Shown here piece by piece: positions 8,841 through 29,021 of a DNA stretch of 64,000 bases. Under the pieces are notes generated by a model that did no database searches, was not told the origin of the DNA, and saw only the letters and a program-made list of their open reading frames with translations. The DNA lies in assembly GCA_018268515.1 (NCBI GenBank), contig JAFDWK010000018.1:19746-83745 (forward strand), in the 5' to 3' direction. Position 1 is the first letter of the stretch; each line of letters opens with the position of its first letter. This DNA is from Actinomycetota bacterium. GTDB lineage: Bacteria; Actinomycetota; Actinomycetes; Actinomycetales; Microbacteriaceae. The translations under genes and the position numbers were made by a program.

Positions 8841-8858
8841 GTTCTCCACGGTAGATCC

Positions 8859-18273: not shown

Positions 18274-18906
18274 ATGACGACCGAACGCGGATACACGACG
18301 GGCAGGGCCCGCCGGGAGCGGATCATCGCCGCGGCGACTGCCCTGTTCGGGCGCGTCGGCTTCAACAGCGCCACCATGCTCGAGATCGCGCAGGTGTGCG
18401 AGATCTCCCGCGCCGGCCTCGCACACCACTTCCCCACCAAGGAATCGCTCATGGAGGCGGTGCTCGAGACCAGGGACCGGGAGGACCGCGAGCGGTTCCG
18501 GCGCAACGGCTCGCAGGGCCAGGACGGGATCGGGATCCTCCGCGGCATGGTCGATCTGGCCCGGCACAACACGGAGGTCGGGGGCATCATCGCCCTGTAC
18601 GCGGTGCTCTCGGCCGAGGCCGCCGACCCCGCGCACCCGGCGCACGACTACTTCGTGCGCCGCTACGAGCGGATCCGGTCCGGCACCGCCAAGGCTCTGC
18701 GCGACGCCCGTGCGGCCGGGCACCTCGCTCCGCACGTCGACGAGGCGCGCGCCGCCGTGGAGCTCACCGCCCTGATGGACGGCCTCCAGCTGCAGTGGCT
18801 GCTCGATCCCGACTCCGTCGACATGGCCGACGCGGTGCGCCGACGCATCGAAGAACTGCTCGTCGCCCCTCTGGCCGCGCTCGTCGCCGCGAGCCCGGAG
18901 CGATAG
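18274..18906 (+). CDS. TetR-family regulator of the GH3 locus
   Basis: 210 residues. HTH at about residues 14-60 (RRERIIAAATALFGRVGFNS, then EIAQVCEISRAGLAHHFPTK), which is standard TetR_N. The C-terminal all-helical domain (ELTALMDGLQLQWLLDPD) is the TetR_C type seen in carbohydrate-locus repressors. It is divergent from the MFS/GH3 genes and followed after 111 bases by the GH1 gene, so it lies between two beta-glucoside units. It differs clearly from the paralogous TetR pair at 23-26 kb. Confidence 0.85.
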   Translation: MTTERGYTTGRARRERIIAAATALFGRVGFNSATMLEIAQVCEISRAGLAHHFPTKESLMEAVLETRDREDRERFRRNGSQGQDGIGILRGMVDLARHNTEVGGIIALYAVLSAEAADPAHPAHDYFVRRYERIRSGTAKALRDARAAGHLAPHVDEARAAVELTALMDGLQLQWLLDPDSVDMADAVRRRIEELLVAPLAALVAASPER

Positions 18907-18947
18907 CCCCCGGCCGATCCGCCGCAGACCCGCAACGCCCTGCACCC

Positions 18948-19002
18948 TTGCCCGCCGCCGTGATCGGTGCCTAGGATCGCAAGTGGGACATTCGACCCAC
19001 TT
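18948..19002 (+). promoter_or_regulatory. GH1 promoter with 22-bp operator over the transcription start
   Basis: TTGCCC (18948-18953) and TAGGAT (18972-18977) are 18 bases apart. Directly downstream, AAGTGGG and CCCACTT (18981-18987 and 18996-19002) form a palindrome with an 8-base centre covering the predicted +1. Its length and sequence resemble the CGATCG-core operators at 23.1 and 27.5 kb. Confidence 0.6.
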
Positions 19003-19017
19003 AGTTCAGGAGAGACG

Positions 19018-20439
19018 ATGACGCTCGACACCGCCACACCGGCCGCAGAGCCGCTCGCCGCCCGGATCCCCGCCGGCTTCGTGATCGGAGCGGCCACCGC
19101 GGCACCGCAGATCGAGGGTGCGGCCGTCGTCGGCCGCCGCACCCCCAGCATCTGGGACCGCTTCGCGGCCGAACCCGGCCGGATCCTGGACGGCAGCACA
19201 CCGGCCGTGACCGCGGATCATTTCCACCGCCGCCAGGAGGACGTCGCCCTGCTGCGCGGGCTGGGCGCGGACGCCTACCGTTTCTCGTTCTCCTGGACCC
19301 GCGTTCAGCCCGCCGGCCGCGGCGCCCTCGACCCCGAAGGCGCCGGTTTCTACGATCGGCTGCTCGACGAGCTGCTCGAGGTCGGCGTGCGTCCGTTCGC
19401 GACGATCTCGCACTGGGATCTCCCGGAGGGGTACGAGCGGGGCTGGCTGGACCGGGAGACCGCACTGCGCCTGGGCGAGCTGGCCGGGCTCCTCGGCGAG
19501 CGCTACGGCGACCGGGTCGATTCGTGGATCACCATCAACGAGCCGGCGACGGTGACCCTCAACGGATACGCCCTCGGCATCCACGCGCCCGGCGACAGCC
19601 TGCTGTTCGACGCCCTGCCGACCGTGCACCATCAGCTGCTCGGCCACGGCATGGCCGTGCAGGCGCTGCGCGCCGCCGGGGTGCAGGGCGCCATCGGGAT
19701 CACGAACACGCACAGCCCGGTGAGCCCGGCGAGCGACGCTCCCGAGGACCAGGCGATGGCCGCGCTGTTCGACCTCGTACACAACCGGGTGTACGCGGAT
19801 CCGGTGCTGCTCGGACATTATCCGGAGGTTCCCGGCTTCCTCGGCGACGCCCTCGCCGCCTTCGACGCCGTGCCCGCGGAGGATCTCGCGCAGATCCATC
19901 AGCCGCTGGATTTCTACGGTCTCAACTACTACATGCCCACCCTCATCGCCGCGGGGAGCGGATCCGGGGAGAGCCCGGACGGCGAGAGCGCGGCGATGAG
20001 CGCCCTGCCGTTCCGGCTACTCGACTTCGAGGGGGCTCCGAAGACAGGCTTCGGCTGGCCGATCGCACCCGACGGTTTCGGGCGCGCGCTCACCGAGATG
20101 CGCGATCGCTACGGCGACACCCTGCCGCCGGTGTTCATCACGGAGAACGGCGCGAGCTTCCCCGACACGATCGGCGACGACGGCCGGGTGCACGACGACG
20201 AACGCATCGCGTTCCTGCACGATCACCTGTCCGCCGCCCTGGCGGCGGTCGAGCCCGGAGGCGTGGCCGAGGGCATCGACCTGCGCGGGTTCTTCGTCTG
20301 GTCCCTCATCGACAACTGGGAGTGGGCGGCGGGTTTCACCCAGCGGTTCGGGCTGGTGCACGTCGACTTCGAGACGGGGCGGCGCACCCCGAAGGCCTCG
20401 TACGAGTGGTTGCGCGCCGTCCTCGCGGCGCGAGCCTGA
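19018..20439 (+). CDS. Glycoside hydrolase family 1 beta-glucosidase
   Basis: 473 residues, the usual GH1 length. The ATG follows AGGAGAG. Family landmarks: FVIGAATAAPQIEGA, acid/base Glu175 in ITINEPA, LDFYGLNYYMP, nucleophile Glu376 in FITENGASF, and the C-terminal WSLIDNWEWAAGF substrate-binding segment. No signal peptide, so it hydrolyses imported beta-glucosides (cellobiose-like or aryl glucosides) in the cytoplasm. It has its own promoter and operator and ends in a strong bidirectional terminator. Confidence 0.92.
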   Translation: MTLDTATPAAEPLAARIPAGFVIGAATAAPQIEGAAVVGRRTPSIWDRFAAEPGRILDGSTPAVTADHFHRRQEDVALLRGLGADAYRFSFSWTRVQPAGRGALDPEGAGFYDRLLDELLEVGVRPFATISHWDLPEGYERGWLDRETALRLGELAGLLGERYGDRVDSWITINEPATVTLNGYALGIHAPGDSLLFDALPTVHHQLLGHGMAVQALRAAGVQGAIGITNTHSPVSPASDAPEDQAMAALFDLVHNRVYADPVLLGHYPEVPGFLGDALAAFDAVPAEDLAQIHQPLDFYGLNYYMPTLIAAGSGSGESPDGESAAMSALPFRLLDFEGAPKTGFGWPIAPDGFGRALTEMRDRYGDTLPPVFITENGASFPDTIGDDGRVHDDERIAFLHDHLSAALAAVEPGGVAEGIDLRGFFVWSLIDNWEWAAGFTQRFGLVHVDFETGRRTPKASYEWLRAVLAARA

Positions 20440-20467
20440 GCGGTCTTTCGCGCATCACCGCGCAGAG

Positions 20468-20504
20468 AGAGGATCCCGACGCCGGCCCGGCGCCGGGATC
20501 CTCT
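20468..20504. terminator. Bidirectional terminator between GH1 and lactone oxidase genes
   Basis: Perfect 11-base arms (AGAGGATCCCG with its complement) with a further GCCGG/CCGGC stem inside; lies centrally between two convergent genes. Confidence 0.65.
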
Positions 20505-20509
20505 GCCTC

Positions 20510-21841
20510 TCAGGCTCCCAGCACGCGGCGCAGGTAGTCGTTCAGGAACACGCCCTGCGGATCCAGGTCCGCGCGCAGCGCCGTGAAGTCGGCGAACCGG
20601 GGATAGACCTCCTGCAGGTCGGCGGCCTGCCGCCCATGCATCTTGCCCCAGTGCGGACGGCCGCCCCGCGCCCGCATGATCGCCTCGACCGCACGGAAGT
20701 ACGGCTCCGGATCCTCTCCGATCACGCGGTGCACGGCGATGTATGCGGAACGCCGCCCGTGCGCCGTGGACATCCAGAGCTCGTCGGGCGCGACGAAGCG
20801 CACCTCGATCGGGAACGAGATCCGCCACCCCTCCCGATCGATCGCCGCGCGCACCTCGGCGAACGCATCGAGGAACTGCTCGGCCGGGATCGCGTACTCC
20901 ATCTCCCGGAATCGCACCGTGCGCCGCGTCGCGAACACGCTCGACGAGACGTCTGAGAACGACCGCGCTCCGCTCAGCCGCGCGGCGGCACGGTTCAGCA
21001 TCGGCACCCCCGCGGGAACGATCCGCCCGAACGCCGACGTCGCCCGGAACACGCCGTTGGCCATGAACGTCTCATCGAACCAGCGGCGCACCGGCGGGAT
21101 CGGCGCCCGCCCTGCTCCTGCCGTCATCCGGGTGTTGGTCTTGGTCAGTGCCAGGTCGGTGTGCGGGAACCAGTAGAACTCGAAGTGGTCCGCCGCGCGC
21201 ACGCGGTCATCCAGCGTCGCGAGCACCTCGCGCAGCGGTTCCGGCCGCTCCACGGCGTGCAGATCGAACGCGTCCACGCACTGCAGGGTGACTTCGACGA
21301 GGATCCCCAGCGCCCCCAGCCCCAGCGCGACCGCCGGCAGCAGTTCCGGGCGGTGCGCCGCATCGACCCGCAGCAGCTCGCCGGTGCCGGTGACCAGCAG
21401 CACACCGATGACCTGGGCGGCGATGCCCCGGAAGCGCGCGCCGGTGCCATGGGTGCCCGTGGAGATGGCACCGGCGATCGACTGCGCGTCGATGTCGCCG
21501 AGGTTCTCCATCGCGAGCGCGTGCGGCGCGAGCAGGGCGGGGATCGCGCTCAGCCGTGTTCCCGCTCGGAGGGTCGCGGTGCGCGCGGACCGGTCCACGT
21601 GCACGAGCCCGCTCAGCCCGTCCAGGGTCATCAGGATGTCGTCGGCCTGCGCGATCGCGGTGAAGCTGTGCCCGGCGCCGACCGGCTTGACCCGGCGGCC
21701 GGTCTCCGCCGCCGTCTGCACGATGTCGCACACTTCCATCGCGCTGGTGGGCGCGACGACAGCGGCCGGGTGCGCCTGCACCGTCCGCCCCCAGTTCTGC
21801 CACGTCGCGGTGGCGGCCGGTGCGGTCAGGGTCAGTGTCAC
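20510..21841 (-). CDS. D-arabinono-1,4-lactone oxidase-type FAD oxidoreductase
   Basis: 443 residues. N-terminal FAD-binding type 4 domain with VGAGHSFTAIA, whose His58 is the position of covalent FAD attachment in the VAO family, and GAISTGTHGTG. The C-terminal ALO domain carries the PHWGKMHGR motif and the end LDPQGVFLNDYLRRVLG. Enzymes of this family oxidise aldono-lactones or sugar alcohols (L-gulono-, D-arabinono-lactone, xylitol). The start overlaps the stop of the upstream PLP-enzyme gene by four bases, and the two form an operon under the palindrome at 23.15 kb. Confidence 0.85.
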   Translation of the reverse strand: MTLTLTAPAATATWQNWGRTVQAHPAAVVAPTSAMEVCDIVQTAAETGRRVKPVGAGHSFTAIAQADDILMTLDGLSGLVHVDRSARTATLRAGTRLSAIPALLAPHALAMENLGDIDAQSIAGAISTGTHGTGARFRGIAAQVIGVLLVTGTGELLRVDAAHRPELLPAVALGLGALGILVEVTLQCVDAFDLHAVERPEPLREVLATLDDRVRAADHFEFYWFPHTDLALTKTNTRMTAGAGRAPIPPVRRWFDETFMANGVFRATSAFGRIVPAGVPMLNRAAARLSGARSFSDVSSSVFATRRTVRFREMEYAIPAEQFLDAFAEVRAAIDREGWRISFPIEVRFVAPDELWMSTAHGRRSAYIAVHRVIGEDPEPYFRAVEAIMRARGGRPHWGKMHGRQAADLQEVYPRFADFTALRADLDPQGVFLNDYLRRVLGA

Positions 21842-23085
21842 AGGAAGGCCTTCCCCTCGCCGCGGTACGTGGGCAGACGGTCGGCGATGCGCCCGGCGTC
21901 GATCAGGGCGAACTCGTTCACGCGCTCACTGAGCTCGCCGGATTTGGCGTGCCGGAACCACACCCGGTCTCCGACCGCCAGCTGTCGCGCCGGTTCGCCG
22001 ATCAACGGGGTCTGCACCTCGCCGGCCATCTCCCGAGGCGTCATCCGGAGCCCCTCGGGGAACGCGATCCGCGGCAGCCGGTCCCTTCCGGGCGGGCCGG
22101 ACGCGACCCATCCGCCGCCCAGCACGGTCGCGCAGTCAGGACGGGGCTTGCGCACCACGCTCAGCGCGAAGCCGGCCACCGGGCGCTGGATGAACGCCTC
22201 GTACGCATCGAAGTAGTGCCCGGCGAACAGCCCGCTGCCCGCCGCGATCTCGGTCACGGAGGGATCCTCCGCCGTGCTCTGCACCGACCCGGTCCCGCCC
22301 CCGTTCACGAATTCGAGCGGCGCCACCTGCGCGACCGCGGCCACGGCACGGGAGCGCCGCTCGCGGATCTCCTCGCGCGAGTGCCGCTTGACCCAGGACA
22401 CCACGGCGTTCATCGCCCCGCGGCCGGGGACGCGATCCGCGACGCCGGCGATCTGGGCCTCGTACGCCATCAGCCCGACCAGGGTGAAACCCGGCCGGCG
22501 CTGCACGACCTCGGCGAGCGCACGCATCTGCTCCGGAGTGCGCAGCGGAGAGCGCAGCACCCCCAGCCGTCCGAGCGGCGGCGGTCCCTGCCAGGAGGCG
22601 TCCAGCTCGAGGCACACCCGGATCGGCGGACGCCCGGCCGGCGGCACGGCCGCGTCGATGAGGTCGAGCTGGTCGACGCTGTCGATCATGAGTGTCACGC
22701 GGGCCGCGGCGCGTTCGTCTGCGGCGAGGGCCCGGATCGCCGCGCGGTCCGCGGTCGGGTAGCCGACCACGATGTCCGTGCAGGCCGCGGAGAGCCAGAG
22801 CGCCTCCGGCAGGGTGAACGCCAGCAGGCCCGCATAGCCCGGCATCGCCAGCACCTGCTCCAGCATGCCGCGCACGCGCAGCGACTTCGTCGCCAGGCGG
22901 ATCGGCTTGCCGCAGGCCCGTCGCACGAGATCCGCGGCGTTGGCGCGCAGACCCGCCATGTCGAGCACCGCGAACGGCGGCTCCTCGCCCCGCGTCGCCG
23001 CGTTCCAGGATTCCCAGAGGGCGCCGCCGACGAACGGGCGGGCGACATGTCTCGTGCCGGGGCGGGCGGCCGCGGACGCGGCCAT
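21838..23085 (-). CDS. Fold-type III PLP enzyme, alanine racemase N-domain / D-threonine aldolase-like
   Basis: 415 residues from ATG 23085. The N-terminal TIM-barrel-like PLP domain has the Schiff-base Lys67 in RLATKSLRVRG. The C-terminal domain (VWFRHAKSGELSERVNEF) carries the metal-site style of D-threonine aldolase and D-serine dehydratase (DSD1-like). Such enzymes cleave or dehydrate D-3-hydroxy amino acids; members next to lactone oxidases are often annotated as amino acid deaminases. No Shine-Dalgarno sequence sits before the ATG; instead a tiny upstream ORF with a strong GGAGG ends exactly on it, suggesting coupled translation. The exact substrate is unknown. Confidence 0.75.
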   Translation of the reverse strand: MAASAAARPGTRHVARPFVGGALWESWNAATRGEEPPFAVLDMAGLRANAADLVRRACGKPIRLATKSLRVRGMLEQVLAMPGYAGLLAFTLPEALWLSAACTDIVVGYPTADRAAIRALAADERAAARVTLMIDSVDQLDLIDAAVPPAGRPPIRVCLELDASWQGPPPLGRLGVLRSPLRTPEQMRALAEVVQRRPGFTLVGLMAYEAQIAGVADRVPGRGAMNAVVSWVKRHSREEIRERRSRAVAAVAQVAPLEFVNGGGTGSVQSTAEDPSVTEIAAGSGLFAGHYFDAYEAFIQRPVAGFALSVVRKPRPDCATVLGGGWVASGPPGRDRLPRIAFPEGLRMTPREMAGEVQTPLIGEPARQLAVGDRVWFRHAKSGELSERVNEFALIDAGRIADRLPTYRGEGKAFL

Positions 23086-23120
23086 CACCGCGCCGTCCCG
23101 ACCGTGGTGTGATGGAGCAT
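23085..23120 (-). CDS. Candidate 11-codon leader ORF coupled to the PLP enzyme
   Basis: On the minus strand GGAGG (23130-23126) precedes ATG 23120 by five bases. The frame reads MLHHTTVGTAR and stops in TGA whose A is the A of the next gene's ATG (TGATG). The main gene has no ribosome site of its own and the GGAGG is out of frame with it. This looks like a leader cistron that delivers ribosomes to the enzyme start. Too short to test by homology. Confidence 0.45.
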   Translation of the reverse strand: MLHHTTVGTAR

Positions 23121-23144
23121 CATCGCCTCCTCGCGATCGCGCAA

Positions 23145-23203
23145 CAACTGGGACGATCGTCCCAGTTGGCCTATAGTGTAGGTCGACGCGCATACGAGAG
23201 CAA
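23145..23203. promoter_or_regulatory. Divergent promoters with a perfect 24-bp palindrome (TetR operator)
   Basis: A perfect palindrome spans 23145-23168: half-site CAACTGGGA on each side of a CGATCG core. On the minus strand TTGCTC (23203-23198) and TACACT (23180-23175), 17 bases apart, put the start of the PLP/oxidase operon at the palindrome edge. On the plus strand TATAGT (23172-23177) serves the TetR gene, with the palindrome over its -35 position. One repressor could shut both directions. Confidence 0.75.
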
Positions 23204-23232
23204 GCGCGAACCGTCGGCCTCACGGAGGAATC

Positions 23233-23967
23233 ATGGCCAGGACCCCAGTAGACGTCCGCCGCAAGGAGCTCGTCGCCGCCGCCCTGCGCGTGGTCGCCTC
23301 GCGCGGCCTGCATGAGGCGTCCACACGAGCGATCGTGGCCGAGGCGGGCATGGCCCTGGCCAGCTTCCATTACGCGTTCGAGTCACGCGATGCGCTGATC
23401 GACCGGCTCATCGCCGAGGTGCTGGCCGGCGAGGAGAAGGCCATCATCCCGGACCAGCTCGAGGGCAAGACGCTGACCGAACTGCTCACCGAGGGCCTGC
23501 AGGGATACGCACGGCACCTGCGCGCGGATCCCGCGCATGAGCAGGCGATGCTGGAGCTGACCCAGTACGCGCTGCGCACGCGACTGCCGCTCGCCCAGGA
23601 GCAGTACGCCGAGTACGCCCGGATCGCCCTGTCGTCGCTGACCCTGGCGGCCGAGCAGACCGGGGCGACCTGGACCGTCCCCCTCGACACGATCGCGCGC
23701 ATGCTCGTCGCCCTCACCGACGGGCTGACCCTGAACTGGCTGGTCACCCGCGACGATGCGGGCCTGGATGCCGCGGTCGTCGCCGCCGCACAGGCGATCG
23801 CGAGCCTGGCCCGCCCCTCTGCCGCGCAGGAGCTATCCGGTTCCGATTCCGGATCCGGTTCCGATTCCGGTTCCGGTTCCGATTCCGGTTCCGGATCCGA
23901 TTCCGGTTCCGGTTCCGATTCCGGTTCCGAGGCTGCCGCGCCGACGGACGAGCGGCATCGCGCATGA
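23233..23967 (+). CDS. TetR-family regulator with Gly-Ser-Asp repeat tail
   Basis: 244 residues; ATG follows GGAGG. HTH at residues about 8-52 (RRKELVAAALRVVASRGLHE, then STRAIVAEAGMALASFHYAF). It is a paralogue of the TetR at 25424-26095, which has STRSITAQAGAPLAILHYAF at the same place. Residues 200-235 are five copies of GSDSGS from an 18-base tandem repeat, foreign to the family and probably a disordered tail. It is divergent from the PLP/lactone-oxidase operon, overlaps the aldehyde dehydrogenase start by four bases, and so probably autoregulates and controls both flanks. Confidence 0.87.
   Translation: MARTPVDVRRKELVAAALRVVASRGLHEASTRAIVAEAGMALASFHYAFESRDALIDRLIAEVLAGEEKAIIPDQLEGKTLTELLTEGLQGYARHLRADPAHEQAMLELTQYALRTRLPLAQEQYAEYARIALSSLTLAAEQTGATWTVPLDTIARMLVALTDGLTLNWLVTRDDAGLDAAVVAAAQAIASLARPSAAQELSGSDSGSGSDSGSGSDSGSGSDSGSGSDSGSEAAAPTDERHRA
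23839..23928. repeat. Five 18-bp tandem repeats at the 3' end of the TetR gene
   Basis: Five units of the form GGTTCCGATTCCGGTTCC (with GGATCC substitutions) encode repeated GSDSGS. In frame, so copy number can vary without frameshift. Confidence 0.92.
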
Positions 23968-25376
23968 CCGTGGTGGCCGGATCCGGCACCGGCACGGCGC
24001 CGGACGCCCTGCGCGCCCGTTTCGACACGGGGGTGACCCGGTCCTACCGCTGGCGGCGCGCCCAGCTGCGGGGCCTGCGCCGGATGCTCAGGGAGCACCG
24101 CGACCAATGGCACGCGGCGCTGCGCACCGATCTCGGCAAGCACCCCGTGGAGAGCGACGTCGCCGAGATCGGCATCGTGCTGCGCGAGATCGACCACGCG
24201 CTGCGGCGGCTGCGGCGATGGATGCGCCCGCGCCGGGTCGGCGTTCCGCTCGTGCTCGCACCCGCCACGGCGCGGATCGTTCCGGAGCCGCTCGGCGTCG
24301 TGCTCGTGATCGGCCCGTGGAACTATCCGCTGCAGCTCGTGCTGAACCCGCTCGTGGGCGCGCTCGCGGCCGGCAACGCGGCGGTGCTCAAGCCCAGCGA
24401 ACTCGCCGGCGCCACCAGCGCGGCGCTCGCGGCGCTGCTGCCCCGCTACGTCGACCCGCGGGCCGTGCGGGTCGTCGAGGGCGGCGCGGAGGCCACGCAG
24501 CGGCTGCTGCACGAGCGGTTCGACCACGTGTTCTTCACCGGATCCGAGACCGTCGGCCGGATCATCGCCCAGGAGGCGGCCCGCACGCTGACACCCGTGA
24601 CGCTCGAGCTGGGCGGAAAGTCGCCGGTGTTCATCGACGACACCGTCGATCTCGCCGTCACCGCACGGCGGCTGATGTGGGGCAAGCTCCTGAACGCGGG
24701 GCAGACCTGCGTCGCGCCCGACTACGTGCTCGCGACACCGTCGACCGCCCAGGCCCTGATCCCGCACCTCGAGCGCGCCGTGCGCGAGATGTACGGCGAT
24801 GACCCCGCCCGCAGCCCGGACTACGGGCGGATCGTGACGCCGCGGCATGCCGAGCGCCTGGCCGAGCTGCTCGACGGGCACCGGCCGAGCTTCGGCGGCA
24901 CGGTGTCACCGGCCGATCGCTACGTCGCGCCGACCGTCGTCGACGCGGCAGAGCCGCACTCCCGGCTCATGCAGGAGGAGATCTTCGGCCCGATCCTGCC
25001 GATCGTGCATGTCGCCTCGGCGGGCGAGGCCCGCGCCTTCATCCGCGCCCGGCCGGCACCGCTCGCCGCCTACGTGTTCACGCGCCGCCGCGCGGTGCGG
25101 CGAGCGTTCCTGCGCGAGACGACCTCCGGTGCGCTGGGCTTCGGCGCGCCCGCCGCGCACCTCGGCGCCCCGGAGCTGCCGTTCGGCGGCGTGGGCGCGA
25201 GCGGGCACGGCCGCTACCACGGCAGGCACTCCTTCGACACGTTCAGCCACGCCAGGGCGGTGCTGCGCAAGCCCCTGCACCCGGACACGATGGCGCTCGC
25301 CTATCCGCCCTATCGCGGCTGGGCGAAGGCCCTGCTGGTGCGGGTGATGACCGGGATGGGGCGCAGCGCACCCTGA
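23964..25376 (+). CDS. Class 3-type aldehyde dehydrogenase (fatty/aromatic aldehyde)
   Basis: 470 residues. GPWNYPLQL (NAD-site signature of class 3 enzymes), GSETVG, ELGGKSP with catalytic base Glu215, and NAGQTCVAPDY with catalytic Cys249. The C-terminus PFGGVGASGHGRYHG through SFDTFSH is typical of ALDH3 and coniferyl or fatty aldehyde dehydrogenases. NAD(P)-dependent oxidation of an aldehyde to an acid. Its ATG overlaps the TetR stop (ATGA). With the facing PLP enzyme, it could remove the aldehyde released by retro-aldol cleavage of a hydroxy amino acid (inference). Confidence 0.87.
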   Translation: MTVVAGSGTGTAPDALRARFDTGVTRSYRWRRAQLRGLRRMLREHRDQWHAALRTDLGKHPVESDVAEIGIVLREIDHALRRLRRWMRPRRVGVPLVLAPATARIVPEPLGVVLVIGPWNYPLQLVLNPLVGALAAGNAAVLKPSELAGATSAALAALLPRYVDPRAVRVVEGGAEATQRLLHERFDHVFFTGSETVGRIIAQEAARTLTPVTLELGGKSPVFIDDTVDLAVTARRLMWGKLLNAGQTCVAPDYVLATPSTAQALIPHLERAVREMYGDDPARSPDYGRIVTPRHAERLAELLDGHRPSFGGTVSPADRYVAPTVVDAAEPHSRLMQEEIFGPILPIVHVASAGEARAFIRARPAPLAAYVFTRRRAVRRAFLRETTSGALGFGAPAAHLGAPELPFGGVGASGHGRYHGRHSFDTFSHARAVLRKPLHPDTMALAYPPYRGWAKALLVRVMTGMGRSAP

Positions 25377-25385
25377 GCGGTGCAC

Positions 25386-25406
25386 CGGCCCCTGCGACGC
25401 GGGCCG
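25386..25406. terminator. Candidate bidirectional terminator
   Basis: CGGCCC and GGGCCG arms with a 9-base loop lie between the convergent aldehyde dehydrogenase and TetR genes. Short stem and no T-tract. Confidence 0.4.
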
Positions 25407-25423
25407 CCCATCGGCGTCCGGGC

Positions 25424-26095
25424 TCACCCCCGGTGCGGTCCGATGGCGCCGTGCCCCGGCCCGCCGTCGGAGTCCCCACCCCGGTCGCTCGCGGTCGTCG
25501 CCGGCTCCGCGACGAGCCCGGCCAGGGCCTGCGCGGCAGCGGCGATGAGCTCGGCCAGCAGCTCCTCGTCCTGAGTGGCGAACCACGCGAGCACCAGGCC
25601 GTCGGTCTGCACCGTGCTGAACCGCGCGACCTGTGCGACCGGCACGCGCCACTCCCACCCGCCGTGGCGTGCGATGTTCTCCGCGATCTGCGCCATCGCC
25701 GCGTGGTAGCGCCGGTAGAGCTGCGGGGCGAGCTCGCGCAGACCCGGCTGACGCCCGGCGTGCAGCATCAGCTCGATCAGGCCGCGCTCGCGCCCCTCCT
25801 CGCGCCGCACGAGCCCCAGGTAGGCGTGGAGCACGCGCGCGATCACCTCGACCGGGGTGCCTTCCCCGGCCACGGCGGCGAGACCGGCTTCGAGCTCGAC
25901 CTCGACCTGAGCGAGCATCGTGGCCTCGAGCAGCGCCTCCAGGGATCCGAAGGCGTAGTGCAGGATCGCGAGCGGTGCGCCGGCCTGCGCGGTGATCGAA
26001 CGCGTGGACACCGCGGCGATCCCGCGCTCGGCGAGCACGGTGGCGGTGGCCTCGATCAGCTGCGCGCGGCGCTCATCGATGGAGACTCTCGGCAC
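25424..26095 (-). CDS. TetR-family regulator, paralogue of the 23.2-kb regulator
   Basis: 223 residues. HTH ERRAQLIEATATVLAERGIA then STRSITAQAGAPLAILHYAF. Shares its recognition-helix region style (AGA/M-P/A-LAxxHYAF) with the TetR at 23233-23967. It lies 34 bases downstream of the MFS gene on the same strand, so is co-transcribed with it from the promoter at 27.46 kb that contains a CGATCG-core operator. Autoregulation and control of the facing GH5 gene are likely (inference). Confidence 0.87.
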   Translation of the reverse strand: MPRVSIDERRAQLIEATATVLAERGIAAVSTRSITAQAGAPLAILHYAFGSLEALLEATMLAQVEVELEAGLAAVAGEGTPVEVIARVLHAYLGLVRREEGRERGLIELMLHAGRQPGLRELAPQLYRRYHAAMAQIAENIARHGGWEWRVPVAQVARFSTVQTDGLVLAWFATQDEELLAELIAAAAQALAGLVAEPATTASDRGGDSDGGPGHGAIGPHRG

Positions 26096-26129
26096 GCTGC
26101 CCTCCGGATGCGCTGCGGTGTGGACCTGT

Positions 26130-27407
26130 TCACCGTACGCCGCGCAGCCAGCGCAGCATCACGGCGCCGATGATCGAGAGCGCTCCCGCCACGAGGAACA
26201 TCATCGCGAAGCCGCCCGTCGCCAGCGCGAGCAGCGCGCAGATGATCGGGGCGAGCACCTGAGGATACGCCTGCGCGAGATTCATCAGCGCGAGGTCCTT
26301 GGCGATGTGCTCCGGCTCGGGCAGCACCTCGATGGCGAGGGCGAGGTCCACGCTCATGAAGGTGCCGTAGGCGGCACCGAGCAGCGCTGCGGAGACGAGC
26401 AGCACCGGCACCGAGGCCATCACGCCGATCAGCACCGCCGCGACCCCCTGCAACAGGGCCGCGGCCACGACGAACGGGATACGCCGTCCGAGACGGTCGG
26501 AGATCCGGCCCATCGCGATCGAGCCGATCACGCAGAACACCGTGTAGATGACCGTGGCGAGCAGCAGCGTGTCCGTGGCCTGCCCGCGGGCATCGCCCAC
26601 CCCGAGTCCGTAGATGATGAAGAACAGCAGCACGGAGGTGCCCATCGCGTTGCCGAGATTCACCAGCGCCCGGCTGGCGAAGACGAGAGCGAAGTTCGGA
26701 TGCCGACGGGGGCTCACCCAGAACTGCGCGAGTGCGCGCAGCCCACGGCGTCGCTCCCGCACCGCCACCGGTCCGACGGGATCCGGTATCAGGATCAGGA
26801 TCGGCAGCAGGATCAGCAGGATCAGCAGCGCCAGCACGGCGTAGTGGCCCCACACCGGCAGGGGCAGCGCGGCGACGGTGATGCCGCCGATCACGATCGC
26901 GGCGGCCTGGGTCGCACCGATGATCCCGGACGCCGCCCCCTGCTGCTCGGGCGGAAGCTGGTCCGCGACCGCGGTGACGAGGAAGATCGACACCCCGGCG
27001 GTCGTGAAGGCGCCCAGCAGCCCGAGGACGATGAACGGACCCGGATCCGCCTGGAACCCGGAGAGGAAGGTCCAGATCGCGGCGAAGACCGCGCCGCCGA
27101 TCGCCCAGGGCTTGCGCCTGCCCCAGCGCGAACGGGTGCGATCGGAGAGCGCGCCGACCAGAGGCCCTGCGGCGAGGCCGATCGTCCCGGTGATCATCGT
27201 GACGAGTCCGAAGCCGAGGATCCCATCCGTCCAGGCGCCGCCCCGCGAGGTCGTGTCCAGCTGCGTCGGCATCAGGAACTGGGTCGGGGTCAGCACGTAG
27301 ATCCACGTCACCAGCTGCGCGGCGCCGAACAGCGTGAACCAGCGCCAGCCGGCCCTGGGCCGGATGCCGGAGGAGGCCGGTGCGGACAGCTCGACGCGTT
27401 CGGCCAT
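26130..27407 (-). CDS. MFS transporter, glycoside/sugar type
   Basis: 425 residues, 12 predicted membrane segments; start ATG 27407 with AAGGAGA upstream. Cytoplasmic loop motif GALSDRTRSRWGRRKPW and the second-half copy GRISDRLGRRIPF are MFS motif A; the tail EVLPEPEHIAKDLALMNLAQ is shared with SLC45/GPH-like sugar MFS proteins and with the broken transporter at 17.7-18.1 kb. Divergent from the GH5 gene, it probably imports the glycoside that GH5 cleaves. Motif-A-bearing importers of this type use proton symport (family knowledge). Confidence 0.85.
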   Translation of the reverse strand: MAERVELSAPASSGIRPRAGWRWFTLFGAAQLVTWIYVLTPTQFLMPTQLDTTSRGGAWTDGILGFGLVTMITGTIGLAAGPLVGALSDRTRSRWGRRKPWAIGGAVFAAIWTFLSGFQADPGPFIVLGLLGAFTTAGVSIFLVTAVADQLPPEQQGAASGIIGATQAAAIVIGGITVAALPLPVWGHYAVLALLILLILLPILILIPDPVGPVAVRERRRGLRALAQFWVSPRRHPNFALVFASRALVNLGNAMGTSVLLFFIIYGLGVGDARGQATDTLLLATVIYTVFCVIGSIAMGRISDRLGRRIPFVVAAALLQGVAAVLIGVMASVPVLLVSAALLGAAYGTFMSVDLALAIEVLPEPEHIAKDLALMNLAQAYPQVLAPIICALLALATGGFAMMFLVAGALSIIGAVMLRWLRGVR

Positions 27408-27457
27408 CAGTGTTCTCCTTCGAACCCGGGCCGGGAGCATCCGCGGCCCGGACGCCG

Positions 27458-27486
27458 ACGCTATCTTAGTCGATCGACCAAGTCAA
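27458..27486 (-). promoter_or_regulatory. MFS-TetR promoter with CGATCG-core operator
   Basis: Minus strand TTGACT (27486-27481) and TAGCGT (27463-27458), 17-base spacer. The operator at 27465-27482 has half-sites CTTAGT and ACCAAG around CGATCG, one mismatch from symmetry, and fills the spacer. Confidence 0.7.
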
Positions 27487-27509
27487 CGATCCGGATCCTC
27501 CTCCGCGAC

Positions 27510-27538
27510 TTGACTTGGTCGATCGTCCCAGTCACTCT
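27510..27538 (+). promoter_or_regulatory. GH5 promoter with CGATCG-core operator
   Basis: TTGACT (27510-27515) and CACTCT (27533-27538), 17-base spacer. The operator at 27512-27533 has half-sites GACTTGGT and TCCCAGTC around CGATCG. Same geometry as the promoter on the other side of the gap. Confidence 0.65.
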
Positions 27539-27584
27539 GGTTATCACCCCGACACCGGGGCCGGGCGATGAGGACGGTCACGTG

Positions 27585-29021
27585 ATGCAGCAGCACCTGC
27601 GAATGCTCGGCGCCATGCTCCGGGCGGGCGCAGCCCACCTCACCGCGCTCGGGCCGACCGGAGCCCGGCTCGCACCGCCGGCCCGGCACATCCGCGATGC
27701 GACGGGACGCGCGCTCGTGCATCGCGGCATGAACACCGGCAACGACGCCAAGGGAGCGGCCGACGGAATGCCCGCCTACCCGCCGGCGCAGATCGCCCGC
27801 GAACGCACCCTGCTCGGCTCCAGCCTCGTGCGGCTGCTCGTGTTCTGGAAGCACCTGGAGCCGGAGCCCGGGCGCTATGACCGGGCCTACCTCGATCGCG
27901 TGGCCGCACTCGTCGACGCCTATGCCGTGCACGGCATCGGCGTGATCCTCGATCTGCATCAGGACCTCTGGGTCGACAACGGCCCGCCGGCCTGGGCGAT
28001 CCACACCGACGGGCTCGCCTCGGTCGTCCCGGACGCGTGGGAGCTGGGCTACCTCACCCCCGGGGTCAACCGCGCGTACGACCACTTCTGGCGCACGAAC
28101 GCGGAGCATCCCGAACTCATGTCGCACTACGAGCAGGCCGTCTCGGTGCTCGCCGAGCGGTTCCGCGACCATCCCGGCGTGTTCGGCTACGACCTGTTCA
28201 ACGAGCCGTGGCCGGGATCCCTCCCCGTGCACCGTTTCGAGCGGGACGTGCTGACCCCGTTCTATCAGCGGCTGATCGACCGGATCCGCCGGGAGGATCG
28301 GGATTCCTGGATCCTCGTGGAGCCTGCGGCGCTGGGCGCGAACTGGGGGCTGCCGACCCGGATCGGGCCCTTCCGCGACCCGCGGCCGGGCGAGCCCCGC
28401 ATCGTCTACGCGCCGCACTTCTACTCGCTGCCGCATGATCTGCGCCGGCACTACCGCGGACCCTGGAAGCGGGTGATCGACCTCTCGATCCGCCTGTGGG
28501 CGCGCACCGTCGTGCGCGACGCCGATCGGCTCGGGGCTCCGCTGCTGCTCGGCGAGTACGGGCTGTCGTTCGACGATCCCGGCGCCGGCGCGTTCGTCGC
28601 CCGGGTGCAGGCGACGCTCGACGATCTCGGCGCCGGATCCGTGTACTGGAACGCGACTCCGGCCGACTCCTGGAGCCCCTGGGCGCCCGATGGCGCACCC
28701 GGGCCGGGCCTGGACGCCCTCGCCCGGCCCTACGCCCGGGCGATCCCCGGCGTCCCGGTCGGGATGAGAGCGGAGCGCACCCGGCGTCTGTTCCGGCTGC
28801 AGTACGCCGCCGGGTCCGACCCGGCACCCGGCGCCTCGGCCGAGGAGACCGTGGAGCTCTGGCTGCCGCCGCGATGGTATCCGCACGGCGTCGACGTGGC
28901 CTGCTCCCCCGCGCCGGAGGGATGGCGCTGGCACTGGGACGCACCCACGGGCTCCCTGACGCTGCACGCACCGCCCGTCGTCGGCCCGCGGCTCATCCGG
29001 GTCATGCCTGTCCCGGCCTGA
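27585..29021 (+). CDS. Glycoside hydrolase family 5, endoglycoceramidase-like
   Basis: 478 residues from ATG 27585 (GTG 27582 also possible). TIM barrel with VILDLHQDLW (the EGCase-type strand-3 signature), acid/base Glu207 in GYDLFNEPWPG, PHFYSLPHD, and nucleophile Glu324 in LLGEYGLSF. A C-terminal beta-sandwich domain (about residues 385-478) follows, as in bacterial endoglycoceramidases, which release the glycan from glycosphingolipids. Unlike secreted EGCases, no convincing signal peptide is present, so it may act in the cytoplasm on an imported glycoside. The divergent MFS gene shares its operator type. Confidence 0.82.
   Translation: MQQHLRMLGAMLRAGAAHLTALGPTGARLAPPARHIRDATGRALVHRGMNTGNDAKGAADGMPAYPPAQIARERTLLGSSLVRLLVFWKHLEPEPGRYDRAYLDRVAALVDAYAVHGIGVILDLHQDLWVDNGPPAWAIHTDGLASVVPDAWELGYLTPGVNRAYDHFWRTNAEHPELMSHYEQAVSVLAERFRDHPGVFGYDLFNEPWPGSLPVHRFERDVLTPFYQRLIDRIRREDRDSWILVEPAALGANWGLPTRIGPFRDPRPGEPRIVYAPHFYSLPHDLRRHYRGPWKRVIDLSIRLWARTVVRDADRLGAPLLLGEYGLSFDDPGAGAFVARVQATLDDLGAGSVYWNATPADSWSPWAPDGAPGPGLDALARPYARAIPGVPVGMRAERTRRLFRLQYAAGSDPAPGASAEETVELWLPPRWYPHGVDVACSPAPEGWRWHWDAPTGSLTLHAPPVVGPRLIRVMPVPA

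Follow-up and report, generated by a model that had tools for sequence, protein, structure and literature searches.

A predicted TetR regulon with a likely sphingolipid-type substrate in a member of the Microbacteriaceae

Four similar operators lie within 8.6 kb of the window, the 64,000-nucleotide stretch of a Microbacteriaceae contig that was analyzed, and precede four units encoding enzymes or a transporter: a GH1 gene; the divergent PLP enzyme-oxidase and TetR1-aldehyde dehydrogenase operons; an MFS-TetR2 operon; and a GH5 gene (Table 1). That these units form a local TetR regulon is, as a prediction from the DNA, near certain, and a sphingolipid-type substrate is likely. The reading that we favor, at a probability of roughly 0.55, is that the regulon serves the breakdown of glycosylated sphingolipids, and probably detoxification as well.

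Table 1. Operators and genes of the predicted regulon (operator scores are from the weight matrix, PWM)
Feature	Position	Strand	Sequence or domain	Score	Remarks
Operator 1	18981-19002		AAGTGGGACATTCGACCCACTT	32.4	Best in window; between TAGGAT (18972-18977) and GH1 start
GH1 β-glucosidase	19018..20439	+	PF00232	406.8 bits	
FAD oxidase, aldonolactone/alditol oxidase family (ALO)	20510..21841	-	PF04030	255 bits	
PLP fold-type III enzyme, D-threonine-aldolase-like	21838..23085	-	PF01168		
Operator 2	23146-23167		AACTGGGACGATCGTCCCAGTT	32.2	Perfect; 24 bp including flanks, 23145-23168; separates PLP-ALO from TetR1-ALDH
TetR1	23233..23967	+	PF00440		Orthologue of cluster-heading TetR in relatives
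Aldehyde dehydrogenase (ALDH), class 3 type	23964..25376	+			4-bp overlap with TetR1
TetR2	25424..26095	-			Paralogue of TetR1
MFS transporter	26130..27407	-	PF07690	108.7 bits	Start perhaps further upstream
Operator 3	27463-27484		ATCTTAGTCGATCGACCAAGTC	18.5	Two mismatches, weakest; MFS-TetR2 side
Operator 4	27512-27533		GACTTGGTCGATCGTCCCAGTC	27.3	GH5 side
GH5 endoglycoceramidase-like glycosidase	27585..29021	+	PF18564 C-terminal domain		

The initial annotation had reported operators 2, 3 and 4, all of which are real, but had missed operator 1 and the GH1 gene behind it. With the sites of relatives included, the motif became ACTKGGWC-N4-GWCCMAST. At up to three mismatches the pattern of the three reported sites matched three places in the window, compared with a mean of 0.03 in shuffled sequences, and the genome scan that had been proposed, run on the 3.71-Mb draft genome (96% complete), returned only the same three places, the reversed-pattern control giving none. 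Operator 1 came out of a weight matrix built from 34 sites of relatives and was an exact match in a whole-genome search. By the same matrix, the best position in the window after the four operators reached only 4.2, and no further good site was found in the draft genome. The CGATCG core once thought to be shared did not hold up, its middle four bases varying among relatives. Mirrored TTGACT promoters had also been described in the 27.5-kb gap; both hexamers are there (27510-27515 on the plus strand and 27486-27481 on the minus strand). On the MFS side TAGCGT stands at a spacing of 17 bp, whereas the GH5 side has only CACTCT. A strict sigma-70 scan of 18850-27700 found no promoter, and a palindrome scan of one fixed region was uninformative.

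Profile searches bore out the earlier gene identities, i.e., the PLP enzyme, a lactone-oxidase-type flavoprotein, TetR, ALDH, a second TetR, MFS and GH5, and the TetR proteins, which had been called paralogues, are 36% identical over 222 alignment columns. The tail of TetR1 has repeated Ser, Gly and Asp. The GH1 open reading frame is listed from 18967, and its start was taken as the ATG at 19018 because this lies downstream of operator 1 and an AGGAG. The oxidase, whose gene overlaps that of the PLP enzyme by 4 bp, carries PF04030, FAD_binding_4 and TIGR01679 (436 bits; cut-off 292), which places it among the alditol/aldonolactone oxidases, and the closest folds to its model are those of galactonolactone dehydrogenase and of alditol oxidases. 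It shares fold and family with the alditol oxidase AldO (2vfr) and the galactonolactone dehydrogenases, but at about 25% identity, and differs from them in its partnership with the PLP gene. By sequence, the nearest solved relatives of the ALDH are ALDH3 enzymes, i.e., class-3 ALDH (1ad3, 429 bits by phmmer) and fatty aldehyde dehydrogenase (4qgk, 423 bits); its top NCBIfam match, benzaldehyde dehydrogenase MdlD, scored 360 bits, below the cut-off of 550. The transporter also matches the sugar-transport family MFS_2 (36.7 bits; cut-off 27).

The GH5 protein gave 322 bits by phmmer against endoglycoceramidase II (2osw), a Rhodococcus enzyme, a match that is near full-length (residues 16-475 of 478) and in which the NEP and GEYG motifs, presumably containing the catalytic glutamates, both align. 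Against the NCBIfam model for endoglycoceramidase I it scored 136.8 bits, below the cut-off of 700. It differs from endoglycoceramidase II in lying inside a TetR regulon and in having no obvious signal peptide when the sequence was judged by eye.

The case for a regulon, as had originally been suggested, is strengthened by 80 loci from relatives, all chosen as carriers of the PLP gene. Operators scoring at least 18 were present in 47 of them, one per locus, and these were exactly the loci with a TetR1 orthologue (match of at least 90 bits), while none of the other 33 had one; in all 47 the operator lay 10-105 bp upstream of the projected TetR1 start, the layout of an autoregulated TetR. The oxidase gene accompanied the PLP gene in 79 loci, a related MFS gene (about 40%) was present at 100 bits or more in 62, and TetR1 and MFS headed a cluster with the PLP enzyme and oxidase in 46, across many genera, which argues that these units are linked. 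GH1 (at least 100 bits) followed the oxidase in 32 loci, at -54 to +156 bp from the BLAST end of the oxidase. Among family genomes, the operator pattern occurred in 44 of 299, the reversed pattern in 5. AraC-type regulators lie near the PLP-ALO pair in Burkholderia (L154), Tsukamurella (L152) and Mycolicibacterium (L077).

ALDH and GH5 genes were found near the cluster in none of the 80 loci, so that operators alone tie them to the rest. Operator matches also occur at TetR genes adjoining other genes (L098 and L099). Both observations would suit a chance adjacency of two TetR units without any relation, their operators alike through regulator ancestry and with no meaning for a pathway. We regard this as very improbable, given the clustering of MFS, PLP enzyme, oxidase and often GH1 in relatives, and four sites so close together with no other good one found in the genome. 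The proposal that the operators join these enzymes gained further from a second genus, in which an endoglycoceramidase-type gene (genome G194) has an operator, TTGTGGGTCGATCGTCCCAGTT (score 25.9), about 90 bp upstream. Operators were present at two of the eight endoglycoceramidase-type loci examined, and absent at L139, L140, L192, L268/L272, L267/L279 and L269.

Several other candidates for membership were set aside. LemA and HtpX, the other frequent neighbors in gene-neighbor clustering and named by eye, look like flanking core genes rather than parts of a pathway. Contig C96 carries another PLP-ALO pair (L191), which has neither an operator nor a TetR1 match. Glycine-cleavage genes near PLP-ALO (annotated in L152; by eye in L004, L005 and L157) are probably inherited neighborhoods, and a GH67-like protein of G142, whose gene has an operator, fell below the Pfam cut-off and had no PDB match.

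The profile matches of the PLP enzyme were 6qkb, 4v15 and 7dib, and the ten best PDB matches to its model were all D-threonine or β-hydroxyaspartate aldolase chains, at 19-24% identity. It resembles these aldolases (4v15, 6qkb) in fold, with the PLP lysine region aligned, but differs in giving no C-terminal (DSD/DTA) Pfam match, the profile alignment spanning the N-terminal part only. Its start is uncertain, homology beginning near residue 22. Hydroxyaspartate and D-serine dehydratases, which likewise have the fold-type III barrel and catalytic lysine found here, matched the model almost as well (TM 0.65-0.69), and deamination is therefore to be considered beside aldol cleavage.

In the pathway that we propose, TetR1, and probably TetR2 also, would repress the units and be released by binding of a sphingoid base or a related lipid. 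The GH5 and GH1 enzymes would remove the sugar, a further enzyme, an N-deacylase, would free the sphingoid base, and transport of the lipid, or of the base, across the membrane would fall to the MFS protein. The flavo-oxidase would then oxidize the alcohol at C1 to the acid. This step exchanges the CIP priorities, so that (2S)-sphingosine would yield a (2R), i.e., D-, β-hydroxy-α-amino acid, the type of substrate used by D-threonine aldolase, and the PLP enzyme would cleave it by a retro-aldol reaction to glycine and an aldehyde, which the class-3 ALDH would oxidize to the fatty acid. Such a route would be independent of phosphorylation, making the sphingosine kinase and S1P lyase steps unnecessary. 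That it is a complete sphingoid-base pathway, under TetR control in many Microbacteriaceae and under other regulators elsewhere, we put forward tentatively, at a little below even odds.

The nearest known system is that of P. aeruginosa, where sphBCD is induced with SphR and sphingosine. For its flavin oxidoreductase and its PLP enzyme, which is threonine-aldolase-like, the discoverers predicted cleavage to glycine and a long-chain aldehyde (PMC3900636). By description, the SphR regulon (sphA, sphBCD and cerN) resembles the one proposed here in being small and combining a predicted flavin oxidoreductase, a PLP threonine-aldolase-like enzyme and a sphingolipid hydrolase. However, its regulator is of the AraC type rather than TetR, its hydrolase is a ceramidase rather than an endoglycoceramidase-like GH5, the regulon table examined shows no ALDH (PMC3900636), and SphC is a periplasmic protein believed to partner cytochrome c (PMC11893366). 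In P. aeruginosa, sphBC are required for loss of sphingosine, SphD is dispensable for growth with it, and the product of the metabolism was not identified (PMC11893366). The titles and beginnings of abstracts listed in the literature searches, with few subscription papers among them, yielded no TetR-controlled or actinobacterial version.

Of 299 family genomes, 153 carry the PLP gene and 3 an endoglycoceramidase, so that the substrate of the core pair may be broader. The regulon might be real but directed at an amino sugar alcohol or related polar amino-polyol glycoside released by GH5 and GH1, the oxidase making an aldonic acid, e.g., a 2-amino-2-deoxyaldonate, and the PLP enzyme either cleaving this to glycine and a short sugar aldehyde or deaminating it. 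The kinship of the oxidase with lactone and alditol oxidases, the near-equal fit of dehydratases to the PLP model, the MFS_2 match, the GH1 gene after the oxidase in relatives, the abundance of the PLP gene and the glycan-degradation look of the wider window (judged by eye) would all suit such a substrate. We nevertheless consider it unlikely, since the endoglycoceramidase-type GH5 has operators in two genera, a class-3 ALDH lies within the regulon, a related TetR overlaps a ceramidase gene in G646, and nearly all genomes with strong ceramidase matches carry the PLP gene.

The ceramidase domain PF04734 was not found in the organism's own genome; it gave no match in well-known control genomes but did so in 24 of 326 genomes. 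Eleven actinobacterial genomes had matches better than 1e-20, a cut-off picked after inspection of the list, and 10 of these 11 carried the PLP gene, compared with 35 of 326 overall (Fisher 6e-10, unstratified). With all 24 matches taken, 10 had the PLP gene (p = 4e-5), and the association weakened on stratification (p = 0.084 within the class) and with laxer cut-offs (p = 0.13 for all 16 matches outside it). In G646, a TetR of the TetR1 type lies ahead of PLP-ALO, and a neutral ceramidase gene is overlapped by that of another TetR, 39% identical to the first; no operator shared by the two loci was found. The PLP and ceramidase genes of G472 are 14 kb apart, with intervening genes that suggest no operon. 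An M28 peptidase (L155) and an amidase (L077) adjoin PLP-ALO elsewhere and are no more than leads as candidate ceramide deacylases; the amidase shares 37% identity with another that lies near the G636 ceramidase.

A role mainly in detoxification and efflux has also to be weighed. Sphingoid bases with antimicrobial action, or other amphiphiles, would then be sensed by TetR and exported by MFS, and the enzymes would clear the remainder, growth on the products being secondary. The TetR1-MFS head of the cluster and its spread over many genera are consistent with this, as is the detoxifying action of sphBC in P. aeruginosa (PMC11893366). Glycosidases and a class-3 ALDH under similar operators suggest catabolism instead, and we judge detoxification as the main role to be improbable.

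If the proposed sphingoid-base pathway is correct, a common pair of enzymes with uninformative names, annotated as "amino acid deaminase/aldolase" or "alanine racemase" and "D-arabinono-1,4-lactone oxidase", gains a candidate function. Skin and plant roots contain sphingoid bases as antimicrobial lipids. The conserved operator offers a handle for finding more genes of the pathway. The regulon would be a self-contained, testable form, in environmental bacteria, of the proposed sphingosine route, and would suggest what sphingosine becomes in Pseudomonas.

The initial annotation had described three palindromic operators, and a sequence check of the window found all three where it had placed them. 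Their pattern matched three places in the window, against a mean of 0.03 in shuffled sequences. When the draft genome (3.71 Mb in 115 contigs, 96% complete) was scanned with this consensus, allowing up to three mismatches, only these three window places were found, and the reversed pattern, used as a control with the same tolerance, gave no match. A weight matrix was built from relatives' sites lying upstream of TetR1 orthologues (34 distinct ones), chosen as matches to that consensus with up to five mismatches, window sites being excluded. The three sites scored 32.2, 27.3 and 18.5 with this matrix, and the top position in the window (32.4) was a fourth predicted operator, immediately ahead of GH1, and the position ranked fifth scored only 4.2. 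A looser pattern (up to two mismatches) occurred at 10 places in the whole genome (7 when reversed), i.e., the four window operators and six others, each with two mismatches and a matrix score of 2.1 or less. We regard it as almost certain that the four predicted operators define one TetR regulon.

Coordinates of predicted operators and associated features (L, extracted locus; G, genome; ALO, FAD oxidase gene)
Feature	Location	Remark
Operator	window 18981-19002	GH1
Operator	window 23146-23167	PLP-ALO / TetR1-ALDH
Operator	window 27463-27484	MFS-TetR2
Operator	window 27512-27533	GH5
TetR1	window 23233-23967	
TetR1 C-terminal tail	window 23840-23930	Ser/Gly/Asp repeats
TetR3	window 18274-18906	
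Cluster surroundings	window 14033-36057	
Second PLP-ALO pair	C96:7117-9661 (L191)	own genome
Endoglycoceramidase-type gene	L193:1668-3086	G194
Site of that gene	L193:1556-1577	score 25.9
ACTTGGAC-type operator	L135:8536	G180
ACTTGGAC-type operator	L136:8251	G228
PLP-ALO with an M28 peptidase gene in between	L155:7920-11681	Mycobacterium riyadhense plasmid
Amidase gene directly after PLP-ALO	L077:4981-6402	Mycolicibacterium
Operator	L137:8803-8824	G142; score 26.7; ATG at 8848

In relatives there is a single cluster, TetR-MFS-PLP-ALO(-GH1), often upstream of genes named by eye as LemA/HtpX. Among the best 80 of 147 loci from a genome-collection search with the PLP protein, 47 had a TetR1 match of at least 90 bits and exactly these 47 a site with a score of 18 or more, with neither found in the remaining 33; the sites ended 10-105 bp upstream of the projected TetR start. 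This one-to-one match is partly by construction, because, by a comparison of lists, the training set already contained 45 of these sites, either themselves or as identical copies. Independent support comes from the two sites outside that set (L034, 28.8; L067, 26.9), from those of the window and of G194, a genome of another genus, and from the finding of no other site scoring at least 18 in a matrix scan of 1.67 Mb. In addition, L016, L049 and L068 each contain one position scoring 8-18, which in L016 is a second one. TetR1, MFS, PLP and oxidase occurred together in 46 of the 80 loci, the 47th TetR1 locus (L073) having no oxidase match on its short contig. At 100 bits or more, 79 of the 80 loci matched the oxidase, 62 MFS, 32 GH1, and none the window-type ALDH or GH5.

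The exact operator pattern was present in 44 of 299 family genomes, and its reverse in 5 (counted by eye). TetR1 adjoins the site in 24 of the 30 pattern loci listed, the others being L087, L090, L091, L092, L108 and L109. MFS and GH1 lie near the pattern in L109/L134 and ALDH in L108/L136, and in two of the 24 (L098 and L099) TetR by eye adjoins an aminotransferase-like gene. Because the pattern also lies near other genes (in L098, L099 and the loci without TetR1), this operator class is not exclusive to the proposed pathway. By eye, the ACTTGGAC-type operators of L135 and L136 have an ALDH gene on one side and a divergent transporter gene on the other; the 18-kb stretches of these two loci held no TetR1-like match.

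In the window, the genes of the relatives' cluster are rearranged as units around shared predicted operators and have been joined by a class-3 ALDH, GH5 and another TetR. The second PLP-ALO pair of this genome, with 56% and 61% identity to the one in the window, has neither a TetR1 match nor an operator; it comes after a PF00282 decarboxylase gene. The nearest PLP relatives among the best 80 of 147, from Arthrobacter echini (75%), likewise lie in loci with no TetR1 and no operator, so the window copy may have been acquired. The alignment of TetR3 with TetR1 spans only 25 residues. The tail of TetR1 is encoded by repeated tccggttccgattccgg-like units, and its DNA is open in a second frame too (PVPIPDPVPIPVP). 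Judged by eye from the ORF list, the flanks apparently encode two GH3-type proteins, Gfo/Idh-type oxidoreductases, a NagB-type deaminase and a sialidase-type protein, and look like a glycan-degradation neighbourhood.

The best relative of GH5, a regulon member by its operator, cleaves glycosphingolipids. GH5 matched endoglycoceramidase II with 322 bits and both Glu motifs aligned, and falls far under the NCBIfam endoglycoceramidase I cut-off. The best named PDB matches of the ALDH were class-3 ALDH (1ad3, 429 bits), dimeric NADP-preferring ALDH (427) and fatty aldehyde dehydrogenase (4qgk, 423); its best NCBIfam match, benzaldehyde dehydrogenase MdlD, was under cut-off. The ten best PDB matches of the AlphaFold model of the PLP enzyme (pLDDT 88.9) were D-threonine or beta-hydroxyaspartate aldolase chains (TM 0.66-0.72), followed by hydroxyaspartate and D-serine dehydratases (0.65-0.69), with alanine racemases at 0.47-0.58; the modelled fold thus sets the enzyme apart from alanine racemases but scarcely discriminates between aldolases and dehydratases. 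D-threonine aldolases have metal ligands; in a 37-row alignment of the PLP enzyme, His379 and Lys381, close to the C-terminus, are invariant and might stand in for these. The oxidase model (pLDDT 86.9) was closest to galactonolactone dehydrogenase, then to alditol oxidases.

By CIP rules and our own reasoning, oxidation of the C1 alcohol of (2S,3R)-sphingosine would give a (2R,3R) beta-hydroxy-alpha-amino acid of the D-series. D-threonine aldolases act on D-beta-hydroxy-alpha-amino acids, and the aldehyde from a PLP step would suit a class-3 ALDH. Threonine aldolases are described as having no more than moderate specificity for the beta carbon (PMC4761611). We judge it slightly better than even (roughly 0.55) that the compound on which the regulon acts is a sphingoid base or a glycoside of one; arguments for this are the GH5 likeness, the stereochemistry, the fit of the ALDH, the G194 site, the ceramidase co-occurrence, the TetR pair of G646 and the AraC-type neighbours of PLP-ALO. 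The likeness of the PLP enzyme to dehydratases and three further endoglycoceramidase loci without operators add doubt and leave this figure unchanged; the main doubts include the missing deacylase and breadth, the PLP gene being in 153 of 299 family genomes versus endoglycoceramidase in 3.

G194 carries TetR-MFS-PLP-ALO behind an operator of its own (L085, L145), and, by eye, the beginning of a divergent membrane-protein ORF overlaps the site of its endoglycoceramidase-type gene. In a matrix scan, six other endoglycoceramidase-type loci (L139, L140 and L192 in the family; L268/L272, L267/L279 and L269 outside) had no site above 4.7, so the link to the operator holds for two of the eight loci examined, window included.

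A ceramidase match better than 1e-20 was present in 11 of 326 actinobacterial genomes, and the PLP gene in 10 of these and in 35 overall (Fisher 6e-10 for all 326, unstratified and inflated by relatedness, as are all such unstratified figures). Within the class, the counts were 8/8 against PLP in 23/30 (0.084); in one family chosen afterwards, 5/6 versus 0/4 (0.024); outside the class, 2/3 (0.004, or 0.13 if all 16 matches count). The cut-off was set with the list already in view, the next genome (9e-20) having no PLP gene; 10 of all 24 ceramidase matches had it (p = 4e-5). One genome (G646) has one TetR ahead of PLP-ALO and another that overlaps a neutral ceramidase gene; the two are 39% identical over 207 columns and match TetR1 with 95 and 102 bits, and no shared operator was found between these loci. 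The M28 peptidase of the M. riyadhense plasmid and the Mycolicibacterium amidase are candidate N-deacylases. The strong operator of L137 lies about 20 bp upstream of the ATG for a protein of about 1000 residues, secreted by eye and with a weak GH67 C-terminal match alone, which may be a new hydrolase belonging to this regulon.

In Pseudomonas aeruginosa, SphR, a regulator of the AraC type, responds to sphingosine by switching on sphA, sphBCD and cerN; by prediction, sphC encodes a flavin oxidoreductase and sphD a PLP enzyme resembling threonine aldolases, possible counterparts, by these descriptions, of our oxidase and PLP enzyme, and the authors suggested glycine and a long-chain aldehyde as products (PMC3900636). 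The chemistry of the proposed route is therefore a published prediction, not a new one. Sphingomyelin also induces genes of the SphR regulon (PMC5150637), and sphingosine loss requires sphBC, with sphD dispensable for growth and the product not identified there (PMC11893366); the covered parts of a 2026 Cupriavidus/sphingosine paper do not name such genes (PMC13293705). In a Burkholderia locus (L154), an AraC-type regulator and a porin, the gene types that sphR and sphA of P. aeruginosa are described to be, lie near PLP-ALO; in Tsukamurella (L152) and Mycolicibacterium (L077), this position is held by an AraC-type regulator with identical Pfam domain composition. As far as our searches of this partly covered literature show, what is new is TetR control, the operator and the actinobacterial gene set, with endoglycoceramidase, beta-glucosidase and class-3 ALDH as further components.
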